Below are positions 14,976 through 18,659 of a stretch of 64,000 bases of DNA, one piece after another. Every line of letters starts with the position of its first letter. Within the stretch, counting starts at the first letter, position 1. The DNA comes from Chitinophaga pinensis (GTDB lineage: Bacteria > Bacteroidota > Bacteroidia > Flavobacteriales_D > Crocinitomicaceae), in assembly GCA_945863605.1 (NCBI GenBank), contig CAMAZP010000001.1, positions 1 to 64,000 of the forward strand, given 5' to 3'. The notes under the pieces were generated by a model that was not told where the DNA came from, did no database searches, and worked only from the letters and a program-made list of their open reading frames with translations. Made by a program: the position numbers and the translations under genes.

Positions 14976-15326
14976 ATGGTTACCACTTTGAATAATAAAA
15001 ATAAAGATTTCTTTGAGCAAGTTTATGCAGTCGTGAAATTAATCCCTGAAGGAAGAGTTACTTCTTATGGTGCTATCGCAAACTATCTAAGCGCAAAAAG
15101 AGCCTCAAGAATGGTTGGTTGGGCAATGAATGCAGCGCACTCAAATCCTGAAATTCCAGCACATCGCGTTGTGAATCGAAATGGTTTATTGACCGGAAAA
15201 ATGCACTTCTCAACTCCAACTGCTATGCAAGAAAGATTAGAAGCAGAAGGAATTGAAATCATTGAAGATGAAATTCAAAACTTTAAAACCCACTTTTGGA
15301 ATCCTGAAGAACTTGATGAATTTTGA
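14976..15326 (+). CDS. Alkyltransferase-like protein (MGMT family without the acceptor Cys)
   Basis: 116 residues of the O6-alkylguanine-DNA alkyltransferase C-terminal domain. Visible are the winged-helix start IPEGRVTSYGAIANYL, the Arg-finger region SRMVGWAMNA, and the active-site box. That box reads IPAHRV with Ala62 where MGMT has Cys in PCHRV. Such alkyltransferase-like proteins bind O6-alkylguanine and flip the base but cannot transfer the alkyl group; in studied cases they recruit nucleotide excision repair. The ATG at 14976 gives the normal length. It stands between the VanZ-like gene and the PLP enzyme, with no repair gene adjacent. Confidence 0.9.
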   Translation: MVTTLNNKNKDFFEQVYAVVKLIPEGRVTSYGAIANYLSAKRASRMVGWAMNAAHSNPEIPAHRVVNRNGLLTGKMHFSTPTAMQERLEAEGIEIIEDEIQNFKTHFWNPEELDEF

Positions 15327-17692: not shown

Positions 17693-17724
17693 TTGAAATT
17701 TAATAAAAACCATAAATAAATTTG
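17693..17724 (+). promoter_or_regulatory. Promoter with TTG (-33) and TAAATTTG (-7)
   Basis: TTG at 17693-17695, then 21 nt, then TAAATTTG at 17717-17724. Both Bacteroidota sigma-A elements and their spacing fit. The ATG at 17766 is 41 nt further, a longer leader than the 16-21 nt seen at other genes here, leaving room for an operator bound by the regulator itself. Confidence 0.6.
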
Positions 17725-17765
17725 ATATCAAGCGAACAATTTTAAATTTCTGTTGTTTTCGGACT

Positions 17766-18659
17766 ATGGCAGGATATAAGATTAAAGATATAGAAGTATT
17801 AACTGGTATTAAAGCACATACAATCCGAATTTGGGAAAAAAGGTACGGTATTCTAGAGCCAACAAGATCCGAAACTCAAATTAGGACTTATTCAGATAAA
17901 GAATTAGCGTACCTGCTTAATATCAGTATGTTAAATAAGTCAGGATACAAAATTTCAAAAATTGCAAAACTAGAAAATGATGAACTGACTAAACTAGTTT
18001 GGGATTTAAAATATAATTCTTCTAATAATTCAGATGATAAATTAATACTAGCACTTGTTGAATTAGATGAAATTTTATTTCGCGATACACTAGCAATTCT
18101 TATAAAAGATCATGGTTTAGAAAATACCTTTACTGATTTTATTATTCCTTTTTTAGATAGAATTGGAATTATGTGGCTAATAGGTACAATAAACCCAGCT
18201 CAAGAACATTTCATTACAAATTTAATACGTCAGAAAGTTATAGGCGAAATAGATAAATTACCAATTCCTGACCCCAAGAAAGATGGGATAATGCTTTATC
18301 TTCCAGAGCATGAATGGCACGAATTAAGTTTACTTTTCTATCAATTTATACTACGTAAGAACAACATAAATACATTTTATCTAGGTCAAAGTTTACCTTA
18401 TGATTCTTTGATTGAATGTGTTAATAAACTACAACCAAAAGCGCTGATGACCTCTTTATTAGCAGCTGTTGAAGGTAGTTTTGTAGAATCTTATTTTGCA
18501 AATATCGAGAAAGATACAAATGGATTACCTGTTTTTGCAGGTGGAGCTCAAATAATGAATTACCAAGATAAATTACCTAAAACTGTTAAAGTAATTAAAT
18601 CTTATTTGGATCTAGAAAACTGTATCAAATCATTTATTGAAGAATTTTCTACCAATTAA
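17766..18659 (+). CDS. CarH-like MerR regulator with cobalamin-binding photoreceptor domain
   Basis: 297 residues. Residues 1-~75 are a MerR winged helix (YKIKDIEVLTGIKAHTIRIW, EKRYGILEPTR). The rest matches the B12-binding/methionine-synthase cap module: Trp137 followed by nine residues and Glu147-His148 (WLIGTINPAQEH) is the W-x9-EH signature of CarH-type adenosylcobalamin photoreceptors. Glu183-x-His185 in PEHEWHELS supplies the lower-ligand His, and GGAQ lies near the C-terminus. CarH proteins bind DNA in the dark and release it when light breaks the Co-C bond, usually controlling carotenoid genes. No carotenoid or photolyase gene is in this window, so the target is unknown. It overlaps the convergent GSCFA gene by 11 bp. 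Confidence 0.85.
   Translation: MAGYKIKDIEVLTGIKAHTIRIWEKRYGILEPTRSETQIRTYSDKELAYLLNISMLNKSGYKISKIAKLENDELTKLVWDLKYNSSNNSDDKLILALVELDEILFRDTLAILIKDHGLENTFTDFIIPFLDRIGIMWLIGTINPAQEHFITNLIRQKVIGEIDKLPIPDPKKDGIMLYLPEHEWHELSLLFYQFILRKNNINTFYLGQSLPYDSLIECVNKLQPKALMTSLLAAVEGSFVESYFANIEKDTNGLPVFAGGAQIMNYQDKLPKTVKVIKSYLDLENCIKSFIEEFSTN

Follow-up and report, generated by a model that had tools for sequence, protein, structure and literature searches.

The window, that is, the whole stretch of 64,000 nucleotides analysed, holds on its forward strand a gene for a CarH-like regulator (hereafter carH) and, before it, a short leader. The features of this locus are as follows.

17693..17724, + strand: possible promoter, with TTG at 17693-17695 and TAAATTTG at 17717-17724
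17735..17757, + strand: predicted carH operator AACA-N15-TGTT, an inverted pair conserved in the leader
17766..18659, + strand: carH-like regulator gene, a 297-codon frame from ATG to TAA, with MerR winged helix and B12-binding module
18174..18176, + strand: codon of Trp137 (W-x9-EH), invariant in 41/41 aligned homologues
18204..18209, + strand: codons of Glu147-His148 (W-x9-EH), invariant in 41/41 aligned homologues
18318..18320, + strand: codon of His185, the expected lower axial cobalt ligand, aligned with ERH of Thermus thermophilus CarH and invariant in 41/41

The initial annotation had recognized a CarH-like protein from its MerR winged helix, W137, E147-H148 and E-x-H185, and the frame, Pfam and the alignment bore this out. 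MerR_1 (PF13411; residues 4-70, E 2e-13) and B12-binding_2 (PF02607; E 1.8e-7) both scored above cut-off on the 297-aa protein, and E183-x-H185 was found at the residues given for it. The best solved relative was the CarH of T. thermophilus (3whp, 5c8d; E ~1e-14), with which the motifs align. The NCBIfam CarH model NF052513 matched residues 3-233 with E 6.5e-25, its 87.9 bits lying below the equivalog cut-off of 400. In an AlphaFold2 model of modest confidence, made from a two-sequence input, helices and strands followed one another as expected, with a mean pLDDT of 65.6 and values <50 at residues 131-149. Sequence supports the CarH-like identity, and the gene product is probably a light sensor based on B12, of the CarH type already known.

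Within the window, carH does stand apart from carotenoid and photolyase genes, as had been remarked: 11 query proteins of the genome, searched against window frames of at least 80 codons, gave no crt, rhodopsin or photolyase match at E 1e-4, and the three photolyase matches of the genome all lie outside it, on other contigs. By eye, a small frame at 14976-15326 of the window looked like an alkyltransferase-like DNA repair protein. The related claim that carH has no visible target genes held for the window but failed for the genome, given that a crt operon lies on the same contig, 61 kb further downstream, that homologues of carH in other genera adjoin crt genes, and that a dyad at crt and rhodopsin promoters tracks carH across genomes. 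The features concerned are these.

C1:79878-79907: exact dyad TGTTTAA-N16-TTAAACA, crt promoter, copy 1
C1:79913-79942: exact dyad, crt promoter, copy 2
C1:79952-83777: ECF-sigma-crtI-crtB-idi-PTPS apparent operon, beyond the window on the contig that carries carH, its start 61 kb downstream of that gene
C12:78225-78254: exact dyad before the proteorhodopsin gene
L128:6300-8333 (contig C12): CrtY-Blh fusion of 677 aa, the next gene after the rhodopsin gene, with lycopene cyclase and beta-carotene 15,15'-dioxygenase domains in one frame

The ECF sigma gene starts at 79952 and the operon ends at 83777, idi being named by eye; the sole phytoene synthase (SQS_PSY) match of the genome is at C1:81999-82730, outside the window. 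Near this operon, on the opposite strand, C1:76589-79176 carries a second CrtI-like desaturase and, by eye, a LytS-like histidine kinase. Among 21 homologous loci read, carH stood directly before crt genes in 9, namely before sigma-crtI-crtB at six (L033 of Brumimicrobium salinarum, L044 and L047-L050) and before crtI with no sigma gene at three (L045, L051, L052); 12 had no crt gene near carH. Crt-adjacent carH genes fell on several branches of a tree of 41 proteins (midpoint root, long branches), and we infer that carH ancestrally stood next to crt and that this arrangement was given up in the lineage leading to the present genus.

A search of the genome for operators, which had been suggested, gave a likely one. 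The 3.09 Mb genome has just three copies of the exact dyad TGTTTAA-N16-TTAAACA, two of them at the crt promoter and one at the rhodopsin promoter, and the reversed-pattern control gave 0. Its specificity was confined to the 16-base spacing, as free spacing of 6-24 bases gave 7 matches against 4 in the control. In the window, dyads were not above chance. When one mismatch was allowed, the genome had 8 sites versus 10 for the control, so that taken together they do not rise above noise. Three of the five additional sites fall within genes, another has no gene in its vicinity, and the fifth (C30:7149-7178, locus L149) lies 43 bp before a gene for a 324-aa protein. Relatives of this gene, with 51% identity, adjoin dyads in genomes G052 and G038, and the site is a possible fourth dyad of the genome. 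Across the genus, the exact dyad was found upstream of the crt sigma gene in 30/30 genomes, and twice in 25 of them with copies ~35 bp apart. All 30 also have there the word TGTTTAA[CT]TTT[AG], which we take to contain a -7-like element; overlap of the dyad with this word fits repression. In 61 genus genomes, forward dyad matches numbered 122 as against 6 for the reversed control, and 57 genomes had a match.

The third exact dyad lies 81 bp before a gene of the bacteriorhodopsin family (PF01036) on contig C12. The residues RYVDW, T and E of its product stand at what we take to be the places known for proton-pumping proteorhodopsins. A related rhodopsin was found in 40/61 genus genomes. Thirty of these 40 matches were made into loci; L101, which has no complete frame, and L108 and L124, with <100 bp upstream, were set aside, leaving 27 upstream regions. 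Five of them had the exact dyad and 11 a one-mismatch form, so that 16/27 had a dyad with at most one mismatch, versus 4/2700 shuffled regions. The remaining 11/27 rhodopsin promoters had no dyad within one mismatch. With L105 also excluded, as it was from the weight matrix, the pair AACA-N15-TGTT was present in 16/26 rhodopsin promoters. Among all loci read, L219 includes masked stretches.

The same pair is found in front of carH itself. The initial annotation had proposed a promoter with a 41-nt leader that could contain its own operator. TTG and TAAATTTG, which we take to match the Bacteroidota -33/-7 consensus, would give a putative leader of ~35-41 nt; a sigma-70-type scan of the upstream region remained at shuffle level (9 sites versus 8.3 in shuffles, no excess). 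We compared 30 carH leaders, the present one and its 29 next-best matches from its own genus and other genera of the family. AACA-N15-TGTT was present in 29/30 of these leaders, which are not independent because several are near-identical; dinucleotide shuffles gave a mean of 0.24 and a largest value of 3, and gaps other than 15 were found in at most 3. By itself the pair is not specific, since there are 5 copies in the 64-kb window. Among 11 more distant carH leaders, four had AACA-N15-TGTT, three had TGTT-N22-AACA (L050 having both) and five had neither. This conservation among close relatives supports the prediction that the leader holds carH's own operator.

The half-sites of the present leader match those at crt only in the AACA/TGTT core; under a strict weight matrix the leader scored poorly, and its pair was visible only in geometry scans. 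Outward gaps were 5 at crt (20/30) and 15 at carH and rhodopsin, a difference of about one helical turn.

In the wider family, the dyad travelled with carH. We used 47 genomes, made up of 20 of the 30 genomes with no carH match and 27 chosen with carH. The exact dyad was present in 24/27 with carH as against 3/20 without (Fisher p 4e-7, ignoring kinship), and the reversed control gave 5 matches over the same 47 genomes. We looked for crtB in all 20 genomes lacking a carH match and in 5 of the 27 with carH. The co-occurrence is partly joint pathway loss, because crtB was present in only 10 of the 20 genomes without carH. Two of these ten (G189, G195) have the dyad; at the crt locus, seven have no dyad within two mismatches, and in one of these seven, G073, the locus ends before the promoter.

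We consider it likely, from all these data, that the dyads and the leader pair are operators of a CarH-type dark repressor of the carotenoid and proteorhodopsin genes, and probably of carH itself, under the control of adenosylcobalamin and light. That CarH binds the dyad, that binding represses and that adenosylcobalamin and light govern it, we infer by analogy with the CarH mechanism as excerpted from PMC8156234. In the dark, a CarH-type (class I LitR-like) factor would bind adenosylcobalamin, assemble, cover the promoters and repress its targets; in the light, the Co-C bond would be broken and the factor would leave DNA. Its targets in this genome would be the ECF-sigma-crtI-crtB-idi-PTPS operon on C1, the proteorhodopsin and CrtY-Blh operon on C12 and probably carH. 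Under such control of the crt and rhodopsin operons, cells in the light would make pigment, retinal and the light-driven pump at the same time.

Could the dyad belong instead to another light-response regulator, either a MerR or TetR protein not seen here or the ECF sigma of the crt operon, with CarH only co-travelling or acting elsewhere? We regard this as unlikely, though it is the best placed of the alternatives. It would account for the dyad in three genomes without a carH match, G189 (93% complete), G195 (90%) and G021 (59%), and also for the TetR gene that bears a dyad in both G052 and G038. The exact dyad is missing from three carH genomes. In G006 a dyad with one mismatch precedes the sigma gene, and G067 has one by eye; G027 has both carH and crt genes, its crt locus shows no dyad even with one mismatch allowed, and it is a counterexample. 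Against another regulator stands the co-occurrence of dyad and carH described above, as do the half-site cores and the one spacing that the carH leader has in common with rhodopsin promoters. At the crt locus, furthermore, the dyad accompanies carH and not the sigma gene: G043 has the sigma gene and lacks both carH and the dyad, whereas G010 and G052 have carH before crtI, no sigma gene between them, and the dyad. The crt ECF sigma was rejected as the dyad binder on account of this dissociation at the crt loci of the three genomes.

The CarH repressor that we favour might no longer sense light, and might control crt and rhodopsin genes without cobalamin, as CarA does, or through another input. 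Of the B12 motif of the CarH family, ExHx2Gx41SxV/Tx22-27GG as excerpted from PMC8156234, the present protein retains E183, H185, S230 and G259-G260 with the spacings published for them, and deviates by Ser for Gly188 and Leu for V/T232. The light-response signature of CarH and class I LitR comprises, in an excerpt of PMC11796333, GxxW, EH, GxxH and GxxxP. GxxW, EH and GxxxP were found in 41/41 homologues; GxxH reads HxxH in the present protein and in 35/41 homologues, with Gly in 4. The residue following Trp137 is Leu, not His. The fold by which CarH and class I LitR bind adenosylcobalamin consists of a four-helix bundle and a Rossmann domain; B12-binding_2 (PF02607) scored above cut-off, and the Rossmann B12-binding model (PF02310) reached 19.2 bits versus a cut-off of 32.1. 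With these deviations the protein is CarH-like by sequence and may be a CarH in the strict sense. Loss of light sensing seems improbable all the same: W-x9-EH and His185 are the same in all 41 aligned homologues, Gly188 is present in only 12/41 so that Ser looks tolerated, and the genome encodes a PduO-type adenosyltransferase. As for an orphan CarH that has neither carotenoid nor rhodopsin genes as targets, the reading suggested by the title of the initial annotation, which would suit a window free of crt, rhodopsin and photolyase relatives and with dyads at chance level, we rejected it as highly improbable in view of the crt-adjacent homologues and of the crt operon with its two dyads 61 kb off on the same contig.

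The CarH-type repressor proposed here resembles the CarH proteins of T. thermophilus (PDB 3whp, 5c8d-f), Bacillus megaterium and Myxococcus xanthus in its MerR winged helix, B12 module, W-x9-EH, lower axial His and link to crt genes. It differs from them in the 61 kb that separate its gene from crt, in the rhodopsin operon as proposed target and in having no His beside the Trp. The operator published for T. thermophilus and B. megaterium consists of 11-bp direct repeats, nAnnTnnACAn, which is not a family-wide definition (PMC8156234, in excerpt). The predicted operators here are instead alternating inverted TGTT/AACA half-sites, and TTAAACA has the TnnACA core in common with the repeats; the same review, in the portion available, stresses the plasticity of CarH DNA binding (PMC8156234). 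Class II LitR proteins of Pseudomonas (PplR1, PmlR2) likewise are MerR-type repressors of light genes, have an inverted-type consensus, T(G/A)TACA-N12-TGTA(C/T)A, and control photolyase, SDR and folE genes, a regulon like that at the dyads of some relatives described below (PMC9758184, in excerpt). They differ in lacking the full B12 module and in acting with a LOV protein, and the excerpt names no rhodopsin or carotenoid target for them (PMC9758184). A Bacteroidota link between MerR and crt genes is also seen in flavobacteria such as Nonlabens spongiae, where a MerR family gene heads the crt cluster; in the portion of PMC11855829 available, this crt-adjacent gene is not studied as a photoreceptor, whereas the gene here is displaced and an operator and a rhodopsin target are proposed for it. 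In Chryseobacterium, carotenoids are induced by light and a CarA/LitR-like regulator is speculated upon (PMC7064467, in excerpt). Among titles and the first lines of abstracts in the open-access literature, we found no paper linking CarH, LitR, MerR or B12 to proteorhodopsin or rhodopsin, and a text search of a paper on rhodopsin distribution (PMC5932025) returned none of 'MerR', 'promoter' or 'cobalamin'. The protein is of a known kind; what sets it apart is the place of its gene away from crt, the layout of the predicted operators and rhodopsin as a proposed target.

Flavobacterial proteorhodopsin is induced by light. If the proposal is true, it provides a candidate regulator for this induction, gives the operator exactly and connects B12, carotenoids and rhodopsin phototrophy in a way that can be tested, and vitamin B12 supply would gate light-driven energy capture. 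With a little less assurance than for the genome studied here, we lean towards extending it to the family: a B12 photoreceptor would directly control proteorhodopsin, retinal synthesis and carotenoids by way of operators with a new layout, in which inverted TGTT and AACA half-sites alternate, with a regulon that is wider in some genera (PTPS-folE, fasciclin, SOUL, SDR and others). Among the matches listed for the genus, fasciclin genes have an exact dyad at their start at seven loci or more (L129 and L132-L137), and a dyad precedes folE at L130. An exact dyad at a fasciclin gene was also found at L210 (sister genome G184) and at L199, and the fasciclin genes are for secreted proteins. Ten dyads were found in G052, nine within 170 bp before a gene and one with no gene near. 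The genes concerned encode an SDR, PTPS-folE, a 162-aa protein with no Pfam match, the TetR, a fasciclin, a rhodopsin (two dyads), a SOUL protein and CarH. G038 has in common with G052 the sites at the SDR, PTPS-folE, 162-aa, TetR, SOUL and carH genes.
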